42,008 nucleotides of DNA from an uncultured SAR324 cluster bacterium (GTDB lineage Bacteria > SAR324 > NAC60-12), in assembly GCA_902562015.1 (NCBI GenBank), contig CACERX010000009.1, positions 1 to 42,008 on the forward strand. Direction: 5' to 3'. How positions within the stretch are numbered: the stretch's first letter is position 1; each line of letters starts with the position of its first letter. The translations under genes were made by a program, and so were the position numbers. The notes under the pieces were generated by a model that saw only the letters and a program-made list of their open reading frames with translations, was not told where the DNA came from and searched no databases. Positions 24,105 through 42,008 of the stretch are shown here, piece after piece.

Positions 24105-25862
24105 TCAATTCCGTTTAACACCATTCTCATATTCTCCAGTTATATTACCGTCTTTTTCATAAATAATTATATCCCAGTATTTTCCATCATTCCATTTTCC
24201 TTCATACCTAACTCCTTCTGCTGATGTAAGTATACCTTGACCATGCAATTTGCCATTTTTAAAGTTCCCTATGTATTTTTTCCCGTCGGAAAAAGTGTAC
24301 GTTCCTTGACCTTCCCTTTCACCATTCTTATATTCACCTTCATACTTGTCTCCTTTCCAATTCCCCTCACCAAAAATGTATATACCATGCCCATTGTATT
24401 TCCCATTCTGCCACTGACCTTCATAACTCTCTCCTCCGGGTGATATGAATTTCCCTCGACCATTGAATTCACCATTCAGCCATTCTCCGTCATACTTTCT
24501 ACCATCAAAATACGTTTGCGTACCTTTACCGTTTATTTCTCCGTTCTCATATTCTCCTTCATATTTATCCCCGTTATTCCACCTAAAAATACCTAGGCCA
24601 TGAATTTTATCTTTCTTGAATTCCCCTGAATAAATGTCCCCATTAACATAATTATATTTACCATGTCCATGTTTTCTGTCATCTTTGAATTCACCCTCAT
24701 ACTTATCACCCTCGAATTTACCTATTCCATAAGTGATTGTTCCTTGTCCATTTTTCAAACCATTCCTGAATTCACCAGAATACTTGTCTCCATTGGGTGA
24801 TATGTAAATACCTTCCCCGTTTTTTTTATCATTCTTGAATTCTCCATCATATTTATCACCTTCGAATCTTCCTATTCCGTATGTAATTGTTCCTTGCCCA
24901 TTTTTTAGACCATTCTTGAATTCACCGACATACTTGCTGCCGTCAATTTGATTGTAAATGCCATGTCCATTTTTTTTGCCATCCTTAAACTCACCCACAT
25001 ATAAATCTCCTTCGAATTTACCCTTACCGTAAGTGAGCGTGCCCTGGCCGGATTTCAATCCATCCTTGAATCCGCCAACATATTTGTTTCCATTAGTTTG
25101 AAGATATATGCCATACCCATTTTTCTTACCATCTTTAAATTCACCTTCATACTGGTCTGAATCAGACCAAGTAAACAATCCTCTACCATGGTATTTCCCG
25201 TCCTTAAATTCCCCCTCATACTTGTTGCCACTGAAAAAAGTAAGTGTTCCCTGACCATTTTTTCTTCCATCTTTCCATTCTCCTATATATTTTTCACCAT
25301 CAGGCCAAGTTAATGTCCCTTCATTGCTAGGTAATCCATTAAAAATTATCCCTTCATATTTGCCATCCTTGTCATCATATCCTTCTTTGTACCATCTAAA
25401 TTCTCCATTCACCGAACGAAGGAATAAGAATCCCTTATGCTTCTTTTCTTGTACAAAAATATTTTCATGTTTTTTACCAATGACAAAATTCTCAACTATA
25501 TTTCCCAACATTTCATTCAACTCAGTGGTATTACAACTAGCACAAAGTTTCGTTTCCTTTTTATTGTATTCATCATTTGTCATTCTCAAACTCAGCCGGG
25601 AATCTCCATTATGTTTTTCTACTTCTAGTTGAAAAAAATTGCACCCTATAAGGCATTCGCCACTTTTATTTTGAGGAGGAGGAGAAATATCAAAATAATT
25701 TGACAAAGAATCATCCAGAGTTATTAGTAAAAATTTAATTTGGATATCAGAAATATCGCCCTTTACTTTTGGTGGAATAACAAAAACAGTAGGTTTTGAA
25801 GTCTGTCCAAATAGGGGTGAAACTAGGAGATAGAATGAGAGTAAGAAAATTAAATTTTTCAA
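24105..25862 (-). CDS. Secreted MORN-repeat protein (about 17 repeats)
   Basis: A 585-aa protein. The TTG start has an AGGAAG site 5 nt upstream. The signal MKNLIFLLSFYLLVSPLFGQ is followed by a ~140-aa unknown domain containing two Cys pairs (CLIGC and CASC). From about residue 165 there are around 17 MORN repeats of the form Y-x-G-E-F/W-K-x-G-x-x-x-G-x-G. Two lengths alternate, 23 and 27 residues; the longer one carries a GKFEGDK-type insert. Repeats 5-10 form three 50-residue pairs. MORN repeats stack as a beta-hairpin solenoid and in bacteria may bind membranes or act as scaffolds. Function unknown. A second MORN protein is at 33484-34425. Confidence 0.88.
   Translation of the reverse strand: MKNLIFLLSFYLLVSPLFGQTSKPTVFVIPPKVKGDISDIQIKFLLITLDDSLSNYFDISPPPQNKSGECLIGCNFFQLEVEKHNGDSRLSLRMTNDEYNKKETKLCASCNTTELNEMLGNIVENFVIGKKHENIFVQEKKHKGFLFLRSVNGEFRWYKEGYDDKDGKYEGIIFNGLPSNEGTLTWPDGEKYIGEWKDGRKNGQGTLTFFSGNKYEGEFKDGKYHGRGLFTWSDSDQYEGEFKDGKKNGYGIYLQTNGNKYVGGFKDGLKSGQGTLTYGKGKFEGDLYVGEFKDGKKNGHGIYNQIDGSKYVGEFKNGLKNGQGTITYGIGRFEGDKYDGEFKNDKKNGEGIYISPNGDKYSGEFRNGLKNGQGTITYGIGKFEGDKYEGEFKDDRKHGHGKYNYVNGDIYSGEFKKDKIHGLGIFRWNNGDKYEGEYENGEINGKGTQTYFDGRKYDGEWLNGEFNGRGKFISPGGESYEGQWQNGKYNGHGIYIFGEGNWKGDKYEGEYKNGEREGQGTYTFSDGKKYIGNFKNGKLHGQGILTSAEGVRYEGKWNDGKYWDIIIYEKDGNITGEYENGVKRN
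24712..25061 (-). repeat. Tandem 150-bp DNA repeat inside the MORN gene
   Basis: The string TCGAAT recurs at 24712, 24862 and 25012 with diverged but aligned sequence between, giving a 150-bp period. Each unit encodes one 27-residue and one 23-residue MORN. It shows growth by duplication of a two-repeat block. Confidence 0.7.
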
Positions 25863-32597: not shown

Positions 32598-33332
32598 CTA
32601 TTTTATTAGATTCTGACAACTCCTTATAACAATCTCATTCCTGTTACCTTGTATTTTCTCAATCCTTTTTGCTCTTTCACACTCCCACTCATCTACAGGG
32701 TCATTTCTATGCCATGCTTCAAAGAGTTTCCAGTTTTTCTTTGAGATAATCCCTCTGCCAGAGTAAACAGAGTCCATATACATATATGTTCTCGCAATCT
32801 CACCTCGAATCTCTTCCCGTGGTTCAACTTTCCGGCTCTTTATTTCAACATCACATTTTCCAAACTCCCTTATCTCTCCTTCAATGATTCCCATTGAGTA
32901 GTTGCTTCTTCTTCCATTCACCTCTCCTATGGCAGGGTAGAGATTAAACATGTCTGCTTGCATTCTTCTGTATTCTTCATTCACCTTTTGTGCGCACTTT
33001 CTCCCTTTAAACTTCTTACCATTCTTACTGACACACTTTGGATGTCCAGTTCTCCACTCAGAGAAAGACTGACCGAATGCATGTGCAGGAACAACATGTT
33101 CCCATTCAATTCGATTAGCTCTTTTTTTGTCCTTTTTGGGAATGTATCCACATGAAGACAGGTTGGGTTTCTTACCCTTGAATGAGCAACCACAGTAGAG
33201 AGTGACAGGATTATCCTTGTAGACCTTTAGAAGTAGCTTCTTGGACTTGGAGAAAGATGTTATTTGTGTATTTTGAGAGAAAGCCTGGGGTGATAGGAGA
33301 ATTACGGAAAGAATTATGAAAAAATGTTTCAC
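32598..33332 (-). CDS. Secreted endonuclease I (EndA-type DNase)
   Basis: A 244-aa secreted nuclease. Signal MKHFFIILSVILLSPQAFSQ, then VTLYCGCSFKGKKPNLSSCG (two disulphides), the metal-binding EWEHVVPAHAFGQ with the catalytic His, and the C-terminal NLYPAIGEVNGRRSNYSM motif of endonuclease I. Periplasmic or secreted EndA enzymes cut double-stranded DNA, useful for nutrient scavenging or competing with free DNA. The start is GTG. It is preceded on the minus strand by palindrome copy F and the MORN-HTH gene. Length and motifs match the family well. Confidence 0.92.
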   Translation of the reverse strand: MKHFFIILSVILLSPQAFSQNTQITSFSKSKKLLLKVYKDNPVTLYCGCSFKGKKPNLSSCGYIPKKDKKRANRIEWEHVVPAHAFGQSFSEWRTGHPKCVSKNGKKFKGRKCAQKVNEEYRRMQADMFNLYPAIGEVNGRRSNYSMGIIEGEIREFGKCDVEIKSRKVEPREEIRGEIARTYMYMDSVYSGRGIISKKNWKLFEAWHRNDPVDEWECERAKRIEKIQGNRNEIVIRSCQNLIK

Positions 33333-33483: not shown

Positions 33484-34425
33484 TTAATTTTTTATCTTAA
33501 CAGTCTTAAATCCACTCCCATCAATAATTATTACATTGGATTCCTCTTCTTTCAAAGTATCTTCAGCATTAACTTTCTCTAACACTTCCTTCTCGAACTC
33601 TTTTTCCACATCATTTGTTAATACATCAGTATTAGTCCGGTTAACATCTTCACGAAATTCATTTAGTTTATTTCTCAAAGTTCTAAGGGCTATACCTAAT
33701 GTATTTGCTGCATGTGTCCGGTTCCCTCTAACATCATGAAGTGTTTTCAAAATAAATCGTTTTTCTACCTCTTTCATCGACATTCCCACTTTAATTCCAA
33801 GTCCTAAATGTTTTTCTACTTGATCACCATCCTCATAATTTGTTAGTCCATCAAAATTAATCTGGTCAACATCTTCACGAAATTCATTTAGTTTATTTCT
33901 CAAAGTTCTAAGGGCTATACCTAATGTATTTGCTGCATGTGTCCGGTTCCCTCTAGCATCATGAAGTGTTTTCAAAATAAATCGTTTTTCTACCTCTTTC
34001 ATCGTCATGCCCAGTTCAATTCCAGGACCCTCATGTAAATTTATTTTAACTTCTTCCAATTCATTTTCATATTTTTCTCTGTCAGTTGAAGTGCGTCTTT
34101 CTTGTTCAAGTAACTCTCCATCCTTCCATTCTCCCACACTTTTTTCTCCGTCAGCATAAGTGTAGATTCCGTGCCCATGTTTTTTATCCTGCTTCCATTC
34201 CCCTACATATTTTTCTCCGTCATCCCAAGTATAGCTTCCGTGCCCATGTTTTTTACCCTGCTTCCATTCTCCTACATATTTTACTCCGTTAAAATGAGTG
34301 TAAATTCCATAACCATGTTTTTTACCCTGCTTCCATTCCCCTTCATATTTATCTCCGTCATCCCAAGTATATGTACCTTGTCCATGATATTTCCCATCCT
34401 TGTAATTTCCTTTATACTCACCCAT
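33484..34425 (-). CDS. MORN-repeat protein fused to two Fis/NtrC-type helix-turn-helix domains
   Basis: A 313-aa cytoplasmic protein from the ATG at 34425 (a TTG directly before it is less likely). Residues 1-105 are about four to five MORN repeats (YKGNYKDGKYHGQGTYTW and so on), without a signal peptide. After an acidic linker come two nearly identical copies of a Fis-type DNA-binding domain, each reading MKEVEKRFILKTLHD then RGNRTHAANTLGIALRTLRN, the C-terminal helix-turn-helix of NtrC-family activators. A short acidic tail follows. No AAA+ sigma-54 domain is present. MORN plus duplicated Fis HTH is an architecture I do not know. It may be a scaffold or DNA-bending regulator; function is unproven. 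Confidence 0.85.
   Translation of the reverse strand: MGEYKGNYKDGKYHGQGTYTWDDGDKYEGEWKQGKKHGYGIYTHFNGVKYVGEWKQGKKHGHGSYTWDDGEKYVGEWKQDKKHGHGIYTYADGEKSVGEWKDGELLEQERRTSTDREKYENELEEVKINLHEGPGIELGMTMKEVEKRFILKTLHDARGNRTHAANTLGIALRTLRNKLNEFREDVDQINFDGLTNYEDGDQVEKHLGLGIKVGMSMKEVEKRFILKTLHDVRGNRTHAANTLGIALRTLRNKLNEFREDVNRTNTDVLTNDVEKEFEKEVLEKVNAEDTLKEEESNVIIIDGSGFKTVKIKN
33643..34004 (-). repeat. Duplicated 137-bp HTH-coding block
   Basis: 33643-33779 and 33868-34004 differ at one position in 137. The 225-bp offset is 75 codons, so the duplication keeps frame. The near identity points to a recent duplication or gene conversion inside one gene. Confidence 0.9.
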
Positions 34426-34807
34426 CAAATATGCTCTAATTCTGAATTACCGATTATATCTATCAAAATCTGTTTCTGATTATTTTTTGTAAATTCTCAA
34501 ATTAGTTACAAAACAACATGATATATAATAATTATGGAAATTTTGCAAAAGGGAATTATATGTCCCTTGAAATTTTTGGGGCAAATAAAGATTATGAGAA
34601 TTTAAATCTCAGGACTCAATGGTATATCTAAAGAAGCTGTAAAAATTTTTTGAGAATTAAAATGATAAAAATTCGAATCGCTAAATTTGTAAATTTTATC
34701 CTTAAACGTAAGTTGTCTTTAATTAGAAAGAAGTGTAGTTTGTTGGCAATAATAATTTAATAATATTTATTTTAATCATTTAAATAGTCCAGAATGCTTA
34801 GGAAAAA
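34426..34807. other. Divergent control region between MORN-HTH gene and Nudix-macro operon
   Basis: 382 bp, about 73% AT, with no supported ORF. It must hold the promoters of both divergent genes. I see no strong hairpin. AGGA at 34800-34803, 5 nt before the TTG at 34808, may be the ribosome site for the Nudix-like gene. Confidence 0.45.
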
Positions 34808-36481
34808 TTGGAACAGATAATCAAACTTCTTAAAAATATTCTAGATAACCTCCCGCTTGTAGCAGAAGAGGGAGAATACAGAGACAAGATTTCAAGGGAT
34901 AAACTATGTGAAATTCTTAAAGAGCAGACTCTTGTTTCAAATGACGCAATACAGGTTGTCATAGAGATGGTTGAACTCCAGTGGAGTAAAGCTGGTTTGT
35001 TTGAGCCAATTGAACTTGAGGTGGGAAATTGGCAGTTCATTTCATTCCCCGCCTTATTGGCTGCAAAATCATGGCTTGAGGTAATGTCTGTCAAAGACGG
35101 ATATTGGTTTCCATCAGGATGGTGGGCAGATAATATGAACTCTGATAAACATAGAAAAATTATTTCAGAACTTGAAAATCTGAGAATGAAAGGTAGCAGT
35201 GGCAGTGATCTTCGCCCAATCCGTCAGATATATGTGGCATGGGCTCTTATAAAAATCGACGATCACCTTCTTTTTACAGAAAGAGAAGATAAACAGCGAG
35301 AAGGGATCCCTCATTTTGTTTTGCCCGGTGGTCGCCTAAGCATGCCAGATCTTATAAATAATCTTAAAGAATTTAATACATCAGAGCTACTAAAAGTCCT
35401 TCAAAGCTCATCATCCAGTAAAGCTTTAGATTCCTTACCACAGGCACTGAAAAGAGAACTTGAAGAGGAACTTGAACTCAATTCTTCAGAATATTCTGCT
35501 GGTAAAGCTTTCAGACTTGATCCCTATTTTAAACTGGAGGGTGCAGGTGCAAGTCATGCCTATACGTGCTACGAAATATCAATTTTCCCAATAAAACTTA
35601 ATTTCAACGGATTCAGACGGCTCGGTGGTTTAAGTAATGCTAAAGGGAATGAGGAGGTGATTGGTAAAAATCCGACTGTCTGGTTTACACTGCAAGAGGT
35701 AGTTCGTTCACAAAAAGGCAATAAAATGGCATTTATAGAAGCATGGCATGAGCATTATGAGAAAAATGAGGGCAATATACTGAATCAGTTAATTGAACTG
35801 CCGGAATCATTTGAGGACAATTACCAGTTCAATGAAATGATTGATATGCCAATAGTATCAGGAGACCCTTTTCAATGCGGTCCTACAGGGCATAACGAAA
35901 AGAAATACTACGTGAATTTGGAGAATGATGAATTGAGTATCTTATTAGCAATGGCTTGGCACAGGCGACATGGTAAAGATTATCCACTGACTGTAAAATC
36001 ATCTATTTCATTATGTCTATCAGGTTGGTTTGAAATTAAGGACAGCAAACTTATAGAGTCTATTATAACATTGCAGAATAAACTTGATAGTTCCGAATTA
36101 CCTCTGATCGAGTCTTATGACCGCAACTGGTTCAGGCTCTCTGTAAACAGTGAGAATCTTTTCTTCAATGGGGAATTTTTCTCTTTTGTACTTAAAAAAC
36201 CCACATCTGACACATGGGAGATAAAACTTTTTCCAGAAATTATTGATTCACCTCTGGGGAAGTCACCCGAATCAGTTTTCAGTTTTAAACTACATTCTGA
36301 GAAAATGTATAAATATCTGAGATCACTTGAACAAGGTGAAGAAGATGAAGAAGTATACAGCGATCAGGACAACATGATGCGAAAAAATTTGGATCCATTA
36401 GTGAGAAAAGCGGGCCTCCGTAAACTTGTCAGAACTACAAGTGGTTCAAGGGAGATTATTCCTTTTCCCAAAGATACATAA
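34808..36481 (+). CDS. Large protein with a divergent Nudix-like domain
   Basis: A 557-aa protein. Residues ~1-135 are helical (possible winged helix). A Nudix-like fold follows from RQIYVAWALIKIDDHLLFTERE (139), with LPGGRLS at 172 and ALKRELEEELEL at 213-224. In a normal Nudix box these two halves are ~13 residues apart; here ~29 extra residues separate them and the Glu of GX5E is not obvious, so it may be a modified hydrolase or a binding-only domain. The C-terminal ~200 residues are unknown. Nudix enzymes split ADP-ribose, NAD and related nucleotides. The macro-domain gene starts 17 bp later. Start is TTG; no ATG fits better. Confidence 0.75.
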   Translation: MEQIIKLLKNILDNLPLVAEEGEYRDKISRDKLCEILKEQTLVSNDAIQVVIEMVELQWSKAGLFEPIELEVGNWQFISFPALLAAKSWLEVMSVKDGYWFPSGWWADNMNSDKHRKIISELENLRMKGSSGSDLRPIRQIYVAWALIKIDDHLLFTEREDKQREGIPHFVLPGGRLSMPDLINNLKEFNTSELLKVLQSSSSSKALDSLPQALKRELEEELELNSSEYSAGKAFRLDPYFKLEGAGASHAYTCYEISIFPIKLNFNGFRRLGGLSNAKGNEEVIGKNPTVWFTLQEVVRSQKGNKMAFIEAWHEHYEKNEGNILNQLIELPESFEDNYQFNEMIDMPIVSGDPFQCGPTGHNEKKYYVNLENDELSILLAMAWHRRHGKDYPLTVKSSISLCLSGWFEIKDSKLIESIITLQNKLDSSELPLIESYDRNWFRLSVNSENLFFNGEFFSFVLKKPTSDTWEIKLFPEIIDSPLGKSPESVFSFKLHSEKMYKYLRSLEQGEEDEEVYSDQDNMMRKNLDPLVRKAGLRKLVRTTSGSREIIPFPKDT

Positions 36482-36497
36482 AATTAACACGTATTTT

Positions 36498-38306
36498 ATG
36501 AGCACCACTGTCACCATCAATCAGGCAATCTCTCCTGTAAAAATAATGGCTGTCAAAGGTGACATTACAGCCATAAGGACTGATGCAATGGTCAATTCTG
36601 CCAATACTGCGATGGTACTGGGTGGCAGCAGATCAGTTGCTTCACGAATTAATGAGCTGACCGGTGGACGTCTCGAGTCAATTCTCGCAAATAATGAAGC
36701 TTACCCCAAACCGGTTCCGCTTGGACAGGTATGTGTTACTGAATCAGATAATCTTCCCTGTAGTTTCGTTTTTCATTTGTCGACTCACGGCGACATGGAT
36801 GAGATGGTTGCAGCTGCAAATGAATTTGATGAACATGATGTACTGTCGGAGAGATTCCAGAAAGTTATCTTAAATACTATAATGACAGGTGTTACGAATC
36901 TGCTCCGGGAATGTGAAGAACGGCGTCTAAAACGATTGACAATCCCTCTTATCGGCAGTGGTACGCTGAATCTGCCAAAACTACTTGTTATAGAGGTCAT
37001 TGTAGGTTCTCTTACGGGACAAGTAATGGAATTATCTCCTAAATACATCAGAGAAATAAACATTGTCACGCCGGAAAGTTCAATTTTTAGTTTTCTCAAT
37101 AATTACCTTGAAAACATGGAAGTAGAAGTTTCTCCAAACCTTATTGATAACTCCGTTGGGAATGAAGAAACTTACTCTTCAGTTCCAGACATAATAGAAA
37201 GTCCAGATATTTTTAAAAGCGTTGAGATAGAAGGAGATTGGGAGTCAATAAGGGAAGAGGGAAGTGAGAATTTAGGCAGCATAGCCTTTGAAGCAATTGA
37301 AGAAATAAATATTCTAAAAAAAGAACTTAGAAAAACTATGATTGAAAATAAGAAACTTGAAGATCTAAATCAAGATTACCGAGAGGAACTAACAAATTTG
37401 TTGGATCAGAAACGAGAGCTGGAGCGAAATTTTCTTTTGACAAATAGAAAAGTTAAAACTCCAGAAGAAATATGGCTTCGTACCGATCTACCTCTGCCTC
37501 TAGCATATGCACAGGACATACTTAATTCGGAGAAAGATCCAAACAGGAGATACCTTCTAGCTATAGCTGCAATTGGAATTGTCCACAAATATTTTTTTTC
37601 ACTTCTTTGCGCTGAATATAAAGCGGCAGATTGTTTTGACCCGAAAACAAATGATCTTGTTAACGAACGTTTCAGGCAAAATTCTGTTACAGACGGATCA
37701 TGGCATTGGATAGGAATGTTAATCACAAGAGCATTCAAAGACCATAATAAAGAGGGGAAGGTTGTCAAAGATTTTGTTAAACTTCTTCTGAAGGATGATG
37801 GAAGCTGGTCCAAATTTTCAGAAGTTCTTAAAGATCTGGTTAAACTCCGGAATCAAATTCATGAAACGGTTATACCTGATAATGCCAGGGCTCTTGAATG
37901 GCTGGAACAGTTCTCCGATCTATGGAATGAAATGTGTAAACTCAGTGCAAGTCTTCTTGAATACGAGCTCGTCTATATCGATTCAATTCAAAAATTCCTG
38001 CCTGGTGAAAGGTACCGGTATAGCGTCAAATATCTCAGGGGAGGTTACTTTGCTCCACAAAGCGGGACTCTTGAGCTAGCCGAGAAATATAATCCTGAAG
38101 AACTGTTCCTGCGGGATCCTTTGTCTGACAGAATGCTGGCTCTGAGTCCATTCATAGTTTTTGAATATAGCAGGATAACAAATTCCCGTGAAGCGTTTTG
38201 TCTGGACCATTTAGCTAATGCACGCTTTCATTTCCGAGCTTTTCGTTATGCCCAGTTCCACTACGAAAACCATGAAGGTGATGGTCCTTTTTTTAATGAA
38301 CGATGA
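36498..38306 (+). CDS. Macro domain - coiled coil - HEPN-like protein
   Basis: A 602-aa protein from the ATG at 36498, 17 bp after the Nudix-like stop; an upstream in-frame ATG at 36426 would overlap that gene. Residues 1-205 form a macro domain: KGDITAIRTDAMVNSANTAM with the ADP-ribose-binding NSAN, then LGGSRSVASRIN and IPLIGSGTLNLP. About 260-320 is an acidic coiled coil. About 330-490 is a helical domain ending in LVKLRNQIHE (R451-H455), near the RNxxxH motif of HEPN ribonucleases but one residue shorter. The C-terminal ~110 residues (YSVKYLRGGYFAPQSG, then FLRDPLSDRMLALSPF) are unknown. Macro domains bind or remove ADP-ribose. RNase activity is only a possibility. Confidence 0.82.
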   Translation: MSTTVTINQAISPVKIMAVKGDITAIRTDAMVNSANTAMVLGGSRSVASRINELTGGRLESILANNEAYPKPVPLGQVCVTESDNLPCSFVFHLSTHGDMDEMVAAANEFDEHDVLSERFQKVILNTIMTGVTNLLRECEERRLKRLTIPLIGSGTLNLPKLLVIEVIVGSLTGQVMELSPKYIREINIVTPESSIFSFLNNYLENMEVEVSPNLIDNSVGNEETYSSVPDIIESPDIFKSVEIEGDWESIREEGSENLGSIAFEAIEEINILKKELRKTMIENKKLEDLNQDYREELTNLLDQKRELERNFLLTNRKVKTPEEIWLRTDLPLPLAYAQDILNSEKDPNRRYLLAIAAIGIVHKYFFSLLCAEYKAADCFDPKTNDLVNERFRQNSVTDGSWHWIGMLITRAFKDHNKEGKVVKDFVKLLLKDDGSWSKFSEVLKDLVKLRNQIHETVIPDNARALEWLEQFSDLWNEMCKLSASLLEYELVYIDSIQKFLPGERYRYSVKYLRGGYFAPQSGTLELAEKYNPEELFLRDPLSDRMLALSPFIVFEYSRITNSREAFCLDHLANARFHFRAFRYAQFHYENHEGDGPFFNER

Positions 38307-38345
38307 TTTTCGTAAACTCGACCTGAAAGTTTCACTATAAATATT

Positions 38346-39338
38346 TTAGCTATTTTTACCTTGGTTCCTATGACGGTAACCAGCTATTCGATTCGGATAA
38401 TGCTTTTTACCAATCTGCCTTGAAAAGGCCGAAAGATGAATCAGCTCCTCTTTTTCAACTAGAGCAGAGCCGATGAGAAAATCAGATTCGAGTCTAATAT
38501 CATTTCCAGCCGCAACAGATGGATAAGTATCTTGGGTGGCACTCCATAAGTGTTCCATAAAACGCTGGGATTCTTCAATAGGGAGTTCCTGCATCATTCC
38601 GGGGAATGCTTCGTCCAGGGCATCCATTGTATAGCTAGCTACAAGCTGGTTATGGACTTCGAGATAACAATCTGAACTAGATAAGTATTCAAATCCCGCC
38701 ACCTTTCCTCCAAGGCCGACTATTATTCCGCATTGTTCTTCGATAGGTTTGAAGTTATTCAGAAAATTATCCAGATTCCCCTTTTCAGAATCAAAAATAT
38801 CCTTCATCGCTGAAGTTGCTGAACTGGCCTTTCTTTTTCTTTGTAATGTTGAAATATCTTGCCAGACTTCCTGTTGATTTGACCGATAGCCTTCCCCATA
38901 TTTTAGTGACTGGTGAACATGGCTCATTTTTTTCTCGCGGGCTCTTCCGAACATTATCTTATCTGAATCACGAAATGATGCCGATATACTGGCCCAACGT
39001 CCCTGTTCAGTACAACTTACAGGTACACTTAGCTCAGATTCCGGATATACTAATATAGTTGTATTAAGTACACGATTCTGTTTGGCACCCTCAAGTTCCT
39101 GTCCGTCCAGCAACAGAATGTGGTATTCGGAAGTATTATATATTTTAAGCTCAGGGACGGAACCGGTCTCAGAAATTTCGGTAATTTTCAGGTATTCATG
39201 GTTTAATGCCTTTCGCAGCATTTCATATTCGAGTTTGGATTGTCCTGAAGTAAAAAGCGGAAAAATGCTCATATTCCGGTAATGTTGTGACTCGCCAAGT
39301 TTTATCTCATTAAGTTTATCTTCAATTATATTCAGCAT
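38346..39338 (-). CDS. ARPP-1 domain protein
   Basis: A 330-aa protein from the ATG at 39338, chosen because TGGAGG lies 7 nt upstream; a GTG nine codons earlier has no such site. The sequence matches the ARPP-1 domain (ADP-ribosylglycohydrolase and rhodanese-phosphatase associated): EISETGSVPELKIYN, LLLDGQELEGAKQNRVLNTT (77-93), VSCTEQGRW (107-115) and SATSAMKD. ARPP-1 is found near ADP-ribosyl and NAD-processing genes in bacterial conflict systems; its activity is unknown. It converges on the macro-domain gene, with 39 bp between their stops. The well conserved GAKQNR and CTEQGRW motifs suggest an active site. Confidence 0.87.
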   Translation of the reverse strand: MLNIIEDKLNEIKLGESQHYRNMSIFPLFTSGQSKLEYEMLRKALNHEYLKITEISETGSVPELKIYNTSEYHILLLDGQELEGAKQNRVLNTTILVYPESELSVPVSCTEQGRWASISASFRDSDKIMFGRAREKKMSHVHQSLKYGEGYRSNQQEVWQDISTLQRKRKASSATSAMKDIFDSEKGNLDNFLNNFKPIEEQCGIIVGLGGKVAGFEYLSSSDCYLEVHNQLVASYTMDALDEAFPGMMQELPIEESQRFMEHLWSATQDTYPSVAAGNDIRLESDFLIGSALVEKEELIHLSAFSRQIGKKHYPNRIAGYRHRNQGKNS

Positions 39339-40679: not shown

Positions 40680-42008
40680 ATGTCAAAAAAAGATAAAAAA
40701 GCGAGTAAATGGACTATAGAGTTCCCTAATATCTTAAAAGAATGGGACTCTGAAAAGAATGGAAAACTGAAGCCTGAAGATTTTACTCCAGATAGTAACA
40801 AAAAAGTCTGGTGGCTCTGTCCGGAAGGACATTCTTATGATACTTCAATAAAAAATAGAATAAATGTAAAAGCAATGGGTCTCTGTCCTTTTTGTGTGGC
40901 GGAGTTTCTGCCGGGTGAAGAACTTCACCCAATTTTAATTGTAGATTATAAAGATTGGAACCTAAAACAAATGGTAAACCGATTGGAGAATGATTTTTTT
41001 CATTTGGAAACATCCAAAAACTCAGAAGATGCTCTCAAAAAGATCAAAGTAAAAAAATATAGCCTAATTATCACATATAATATTGAATTAATTAGAGAAA
41101 TAAATTCTATATCTCCTTTAACACGTGTGATAATTTTATTATATCGGTCTATGCTAGTTACAGAACCTGAAATTTTTTTAAGTGTGCATAACGCAGGACC
41201 AATTAGAGCATTATGTCTCACTGTTGGCAGGATGGTAAATAAAAACGAACTAGGTGATAAGGATGACCCGGGGAATTTATTTTCACAAATTATTAAAGAA
41301 GAGATATATAAAACTCTTAATGAAAGAATTGAAAGAATTGAAAATACAGTTGTTATTAGTCCTAAAATTCGTAACCGTGACTTCCACCCGGAACATAAAG
41401 CTCAATCAGAATTTGGACATTTAATTAGTCAAGAAATTTTAATTAAACAAAATAATCAATTACGTAATTTAGAAATACTCAGAGAAAAGAATAATGAAGA
41501 CAAACTTTCAAATATTTTTGTGCAGATGAAGCTCACAGTAATTCATGACCACGATCGTGTTGAAGAGATAGTCCCTCTAATAAGTGAATATTCTAATTCG
41601 CAGAATAGAGTACAGTTAGCTGATCTGTCAGCAAACAAGAAACCCCACCCGCAAATTCAGGCAATTTCAGAAAAGTTGCCAGCTCCAGATCCTACCAAAG
41701 GTTCAAAAACAACTTACTGGTTTTATGAAAGATCAAGAGGAAGCTATGAGGAATTAAAACGTCTGACAGCAAAAACACCGGTTCAAAAAAAGAATTTTGA
41801 GGAGGAATGGCCGAAAAAACAGAGATTTGATAAACTGAAATTAGCCAAAGTATGGAACACCTATCTTTTATGGCCTCATACAGTTTGTTTGGGAGGTCAA
41901 AAGAATTTTGCGATTTTTAACAAATGGGTTCACGGTGAAGCAGATAAGGATTTAAAAATTTTCTTCAGGGAATCAGTTTCACTCCTTATTTTATGGAATG
42001 AAACAGAA
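40680..42008 (+). CDS. Zinc ribbon - degenerate receiver - AIPR domain protein (3' end beyond window)
   Basis: Open from the ATG at 40680 to the window end: 443 residues with no stop. Residues ~10-75 are a treble-clef zinc ribbon of the DUF4379 type: FPNILKEWDSEKNGKLKPED, then KVWWLCPEGHSY and GLCPFC with C47, H51, C69 and C72. Residues 85-~180 resemble a response-regulator receiver (ILIVDYKDWNLKQMVNRLE, then SEDALKKIKVKKYSLIIT), but the loop with the phosphorylated Asp is deleted and the active-site acid pair is reduced. From ~278 it matches AIPR: LSNIFVQMKLTV, SEYSNSQNRV, YWFYERSRGSYEEL and LGGQKNF. AIPR proteins act in abortive infection phage resistance. The normal AIPR N-terminal half is replaced. 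Confidence 0.82.
   Translation, partial: MSKKDKKASKWTIEFPNILKEWDSEKNGKLKPEDFTPDSNKKVWWLCPEGHSYDTSIKNRINVKAMGLCPFCVAEFLPGEELHPILIVDYKDWNLKQMVNRLENDFFHLETSKNSEDALKKIKVKKYSLIITYNIELIREINSISPLTRVIILLYRSMLVTEPEIFLSVHNAGPIRALCLTVGRMVNKNELGDKDDPGNLFSQIIKEEIYKTLNERIERIENTVVISPKIRNRDFHPEHKAQSEFGHLISQEILIKQNNQLRNLEILREKNNEDKLSNIFVQMKLTVIHDHDRVEEIVPLISEYSNSQNRVQLADLSANKKPHPQIQAISEKLPAPDPTKGSKTTYWFYERSRGSYEELKRLTAKTPVQKKNFEEEWPKKQRFDKLKLAKVWNTYLLWPHTVCLGGQKNFAIFNKWVHGEADKDLKIFFRESVSLLILWNETE

Follow-up and report, generated by a model that had tools for sequence, protein, structure and literature searches.

The window, a stretch of 42,008 nucleotides from an uncultured SAR324 cluster bacterium, carries two adjacent genes coding for a Nudix-like protein and a macro-domain protein which we propose, at a probability of roughly one in three, to form a unit that combines a ligand reader with its own effector and a Nudix partner that would cleave the ligand. 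The pair looks undescribed in the open-access literature searched, and the claim to novelty sits with these two genes and not with the three-gene set, ARPP-1 included, that the initial annotation had put forward as a candidate NAD/ADP-ribose conflict module. The genes of the region and the parts of the macro protein are as follows:

34808..36481, + strand, Nudix-like gene, 557 aa (ORF call)
36498..38306, + strand, macro-domain gene, 602 aa (best start, ATG at 36498)
36498..37142, + strand, macro domain, residues 1–215, with a conserved NSAN-type stretch and GSG loop
37275..37448, + strand, long helix, probable coiled coil, model residues 260–317
37494..38303, + strand, conserved helical region (helices ~333–488), C-terminal β region (~490–548) and tail
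38346..39338, − strand, ARPP-1 (DUF6569) gene, 330 aa (PF20208, E=1.4e-92)
40680..42008, + strand, AIPR-family gene, truncated where the window ends (PF10592, E=7.6e-37; DUF4379, E=4.2e-19)

The Nudix stop codon and the macro ATG are separated by 16 bp and both genes lie on the + strand. ARPP-1 is read from the other strand and has start signals of its own. The macro and ARPP-1 genes are convergent, and their stop codons are 39 bp apart. The identities and positions given to the three genes in the initial annotation are borne out by ORF calls, Pfam matches and the predicted Nudix and macro folds, as are the convergent 39-bp arrangement and the presence of an AIPR gene beyond ARPP-1. The AIPR gene is best regarded as a neighbour whose membership of the unit would be putative; its similarity to the MzaE model is partial and far below the cut-off (91.3 bits, cut-off 1050). 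Its N-terminal DUF4379 is a probable zinc-finger domain. It is doubtful, though conceivable, that all these genes are chance neighbours in a variable region that also holds AIPR, endonuclease I and short orphan genes. The mixed strands, the several short ORFs at 39.5–40.6 kb and the nearby AIPR gene speak for such a region, while the shared strand of the Nudix and macro genes, their 16-bp gap and a possible shared contig (see below) speak against chance as the origin of the pair. The short ORFs carry no family assignment. A PHROGs comparison of six proteins returned nothing useful. Elsewhere in the window, an Endonuclease I family gene (32598–33332, PF04231) has an N-terminus that looks like a signal peptide by eye, a 585-aa protein (24105–25862) contains 13 MORN-repeat stretches, and the product of 33484–34428 joins MORN repeats to two downstream stretches of the Fis-type HTH_8 family, which strikes us as an odd combination.

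The macro-domain protein is a member of the macro superfamily by both profile (Macro Pfam match, E=2.9e-10) and fold, the latter confirmed by a structure search with the predicted model. The best sequence entries for the domain are the macrodomains of PARP14 and macroH2A1.1, both of which are ADP-ribose binders. At the presumed position of the catalytic Asp of MacroD-type hydrolases, the family mostly carries S-V-A or S-V-S. The domain thus most likely reads ADP-ribose or a related nucleotide. Reader and hydrolase macrodomains tie in the fold list, which lowers confidence in the proposed reading of the pair.

In the part that follows the macro domain, the long helix is probably a coiled coil, and coiled-coil Pfam models are weakly matched by some family members. 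Further on, the R, N, I and H of an RN-x-I-H motif (residues 451–455) are invariant in 39 of 39 aligned family members, as are the T, G and W of a TDGSW motif across the same 39 rows; the C-terminal part is therefore under constraint. No domain was found for the helical RN-x-I-H part among the matches listed for family members (25 of 73 Pfam families), and the structure-search lists for the model (mean pLDDT 75.2 overall, below 50 for residues 558–594) are filled by macro-domain matches, so that the searches barely probed the C-terminal part. One relative, P0060, has a precomputed Pfam label PF27921 in addition to Macro. The HEPN motif reads R-x(4-6)-H. The RN-x-I-H region might be called HEPN-like by motif resemblance, but the HEPN spacing is absent, three residues separating R from H in all 39 rows, and the family gave no match to the profile of DUF4145, one of the HEPN families.

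The Nudix domain occupies approximately residues 136–333 of the Nudix-like protein and is flanked by extra N- and C-terminal regions, which appear winged-helix-like by eye in the secondary structure of the model and were barely covered by the fold search. The window protein itself has no Pfam match at E≤1, and PF00293 is matched by 26 of the 29 aligned family members (best E=7.5e-08). The predicted model matches the Nudix fold, and the Nudix box can be traced as G175-x5-D181-(34 residues)-R216-E217-L-x-E220-E221, with D181, R216, E217, E220 and E221 invariant in all 29 rows; by fold and box together the protein belongs to the Nudix superfamily. The box departs from the standard one in having D in place of the first E and an interruption of 34 residues at a site where the usual spacing is 7.

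The reader, effector and cleaving-partner scheme is proposed because of this domain logic and the precedent of TM-macro ThsA (PMC11204291). The macro domain would bind its ligand and relay binding through the coiled coil to the helical effector region with its RN-x-I-H motif, which might then act through clustering and might have RNA as its target. The Nudix protein, whose acidic box is kept, would hydrolyse this ligand or one related to it and in this way set the threshold of the response or end the signal; any role in phage defence is likewise an extrapolation. In its most specific form, namely an immune or stress switch made of a macro nucleotide sensor, a new RN-x-I-H effector and an interrupted-box Nudix that degrades the signal, with ARPP-1 as a separate ADP-ribose-related gene, the proposal is unlikely. 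The pair could instead have a house-keeping role, which is possible though less likely than not: the Nudix protein would trim capped RNA or dinucleotides in the manner of RppH, and the macro protein would read or strip off ADP-ribose carried by RNA or protein, neither of them taking part in conflict. Against such a role, the fold-match ranks of the Nudix model do not separate substrates, and Nudix relatives are rare in Pseudomonadota, a full-length one being present in 1 of 398 genomes, which is itself a genome on which the sample was centred (short matches occur in five).

Relatives of both proteins were collected by protein searches, which gave 36 matches for the macro family and 22 for Nudix, the window protein included in each; a search with the C-terminal region of one macro relative gave 44 matches, the window protein again among them, nine of which were new. 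Few of the relatives have names (Candidatus Lambdaproteobacteria, P0029; Deltaproteobacteria, P0067; ‘bacterium’, P0063), and Dechloromonas denitrificans (P0056) is among the distant Nudix matches. The first two names suggest a probably marine lineage of proteobacterial type. For every macro-family match except the window protein, the longest contig is shorter than 12 kb. When 15 close ones of the 21 other Nudix matches were compared with all 44 other macro matches by the length of the longest contig, two values, 5434 and 2269, were shared, and the source agrees for 5434 only: Nudix match P0043 and macro match P0030, both from ENA, have it in common. The shared length hints, weakly, at a recurrence of the pair. 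That the pair is conserved as a unit is tentatively suggested by the operon-like spacing and by this one shared length.

Distant Nudix relatives are found in at least 11 genome loci (L001–L011), mostly from Betaproteobacteria; in L001–L009 most of the protein aligns at 27–30% identity. Unlike the Nudix gene of the window, these have other partners (DUF3825, YhcG and genes without family assignment): the macro profile matches nothing in the 11 loci, although the sequence of L008 and L011 stops at the Nudix gene or inside it. Short macro-domain matches were found in three of the 11 genomes, and full-length macro relatives in none. Among the flanking ORFs, which were partly scanned, a YhcG gene adjoins the Nudix gene in one of five loci. 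DUF3825 genes stand directly beside it in two of the same five partly scanned loci (L002:7748–8956 and L009:9410–10498), and one of these DUF3825 proteins carries an OST-HTH domain; no mention of DUF3825 was found in the open-access papers searched. We count these YhcG and DUF3825 neighbours in favour of the proposed reading of the pair. In the 398 Pseudomonadota genomes, with at most three first-look candidates scored per genome for either family, no full-length macro relative was found and short macro-profile matches occur in 97; those listed fall within profile positions 4–259 of 590, and none reaches RN-x-I-H. No macro relatives were found in viral contigs or plasmids and no Nudix relatives in viral contigs.

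The window ARPP-1 comprises the whole domain, the PF20208 match spanning positions 2–297 of 297. It was aligned with three other ARPP-1 proteins, and the conserved Cys and Gln of the signature DGQELEGAKQNR...PVSCTEQGRW are kept; by our own reading, these correspond to the absolutely conserved residues described in the relevant part of PMC9503650. According to the same source, ARPP was named for its link to ADP-ribosylglycohydrolase (ARG) and rhodanese-phosphatase genes, and it was on this link that the ADP-ribose theme of the initial annotation drew. For the macro and ARPP-1 proteins that theme is reasonable, and the association with ARG genes is seen in our data as well: with two plasmids counted once, an ARG is close to ARPP-1 in two of four neighbourhoods, in agreement with what PMC9503650 describes. 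In one (L016) it is the gene next to ARPP-1 (PF03747, 1.5e-37), and in another (L018) an annotated ARG lies one small gene further. In the remaining two, L015 (17 kb) and L017 (9.1 kb, truncated by a contig end), two ARG queries found none. In L016 (6285–10978), ARPP-1 and ARG also have as neighbour a divergent sigma-54 activator that matches CARF weakly, and the adjoining ORFs resemble type I restriction genes by eye. ARPP-1 is present in 3 of 299 Pseudomonadota genomes and in two plasmid records, both from Pimelobacter simplex and of nearly equal length; none was found in viral contigs.

In the window, no ARG was detected, either as a PF03747 match among the 37 ORFs, on a contig that ends 2.7 kb past ARPP-1, or by phmmer with the two ARG queries against ORFs of 60 aa or more. 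Because the two queries are themselves divergent (about 1e-6 when compared with one another), remote ARGs may have escaped them. Pfam likewise found no rhodanese-phosphatase or other phosphatase among the 37 ORFs, an absence that weighs little because, in the part of PMC9503650 concerned, rhodanese-phosphatase is reported in slightly over 55% of ARG-centred neighbourhoods.

The grouping of all three genes into one module, which the initial annotation proposed, received no support in the genomes tested. Besides the opposite strand, ARPP-1 was found in none of the 11 distant-Nudix genomes, in two runs (six genomes, with no positive genome in the run, and five, in a run in which three ARPP-1 genomes were detected). 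Conversely, this Nudix was found in none of three ARPP-1 genomes, in a run that had no positive genome and with a query that works in the 398-genome scan; neither this Nudix nor this macro family was found in the ARPP-1 loci L015–L017 and L018. The three families thus do not co-occur in the genomes that could be scanned. The genomes tested for co-occurrence carry distant relatives and include several metagenome-assembled genomes of unstated completeness, and the phylum samples, centred on the L001–L011 genomes, are Pseudomonadota and probably outside the lineage of the window, so the claim is weakened and not settled. It would be improbable, on balance, that the three genes are a reduced version of the ARG-centred systems, with macro in place of ARG and with the Nudix, macro and ARPP-1 proteins acting together on ADP-ribose adducts. 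Their contiguity, the Cys and Gln kept in ARPP-1 and the occurrence of all three kinds of protein in the ARG-centred systems of PMC9503650 favour such an arrangement; the separate strand and start signals of ARPP-1, the lack of co-occurrence in the tested genomes and the ARG-free window argue against it. ARPP-1 is treated here as a neighbour of the pair, with a putative connection.

The initial annotation knew of no described system with this composition, which is true in part. The ARG-centred systems in section 3.8 of PMC9503650 include Nudix-HTH regulators, Macro or NADAR accessories and ARPP, so that a neighbourhood combining ARPP with Nudix and Macro domains has a precedent; the window differs in showing neither ARG nor phosphatase among its 37 ORFs and in its convergent ARPP-1. 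Moreover, where the Nudix proteins described there are Nudix-HTH regulators, that of the window is a 557-aa protein with its acidic box kept, and the macro domain of the window is followed by a long, conserved C-terminal stretch. A second comparison is with TM-macro ThsA of Thoeris, which, as described in PMC11204291, oligomerises when it binds its ligands, ADPR and IAD. In the window protein, as in ThsA, the macro domain is joined to a further region that may be an effector, and the reading of an ADP-ribose-type ligand is, by analogy, the working model for it; unlike ThsA, it has a probable coiled coil and the RN-x-I-H region. No TIR match that would point to a ThsB gene was found by Pfam among the 37 window ORFs. 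The macro domain is also shared with DarG, the macro antitoxin of DarTG, and the PADLOC DarG profile matches 30 of 39 macro family members at E≤0.5 (best 1.3e-06; window member, E=0.017). The window ORFs gave no ART-type match that would indicate DarT (37 by Pfam, ten of them also by PADLOC and NCBIfam), and PADLOC called no system for the Nudix–macro pair.

If the proposed reading of the pair is correct, it would add to bacterial NAD/ADP-ribose signalling a macro-domain reader whose effector region is of a new type and whose off switch, the Nudix enzyme, is built in, carried by lineages that appear to be known mainly from environmental DNA. It would also be a further case of ARPP-1 standing apart from ARG genes, and this would bear on the chemistry of ARPP-1.
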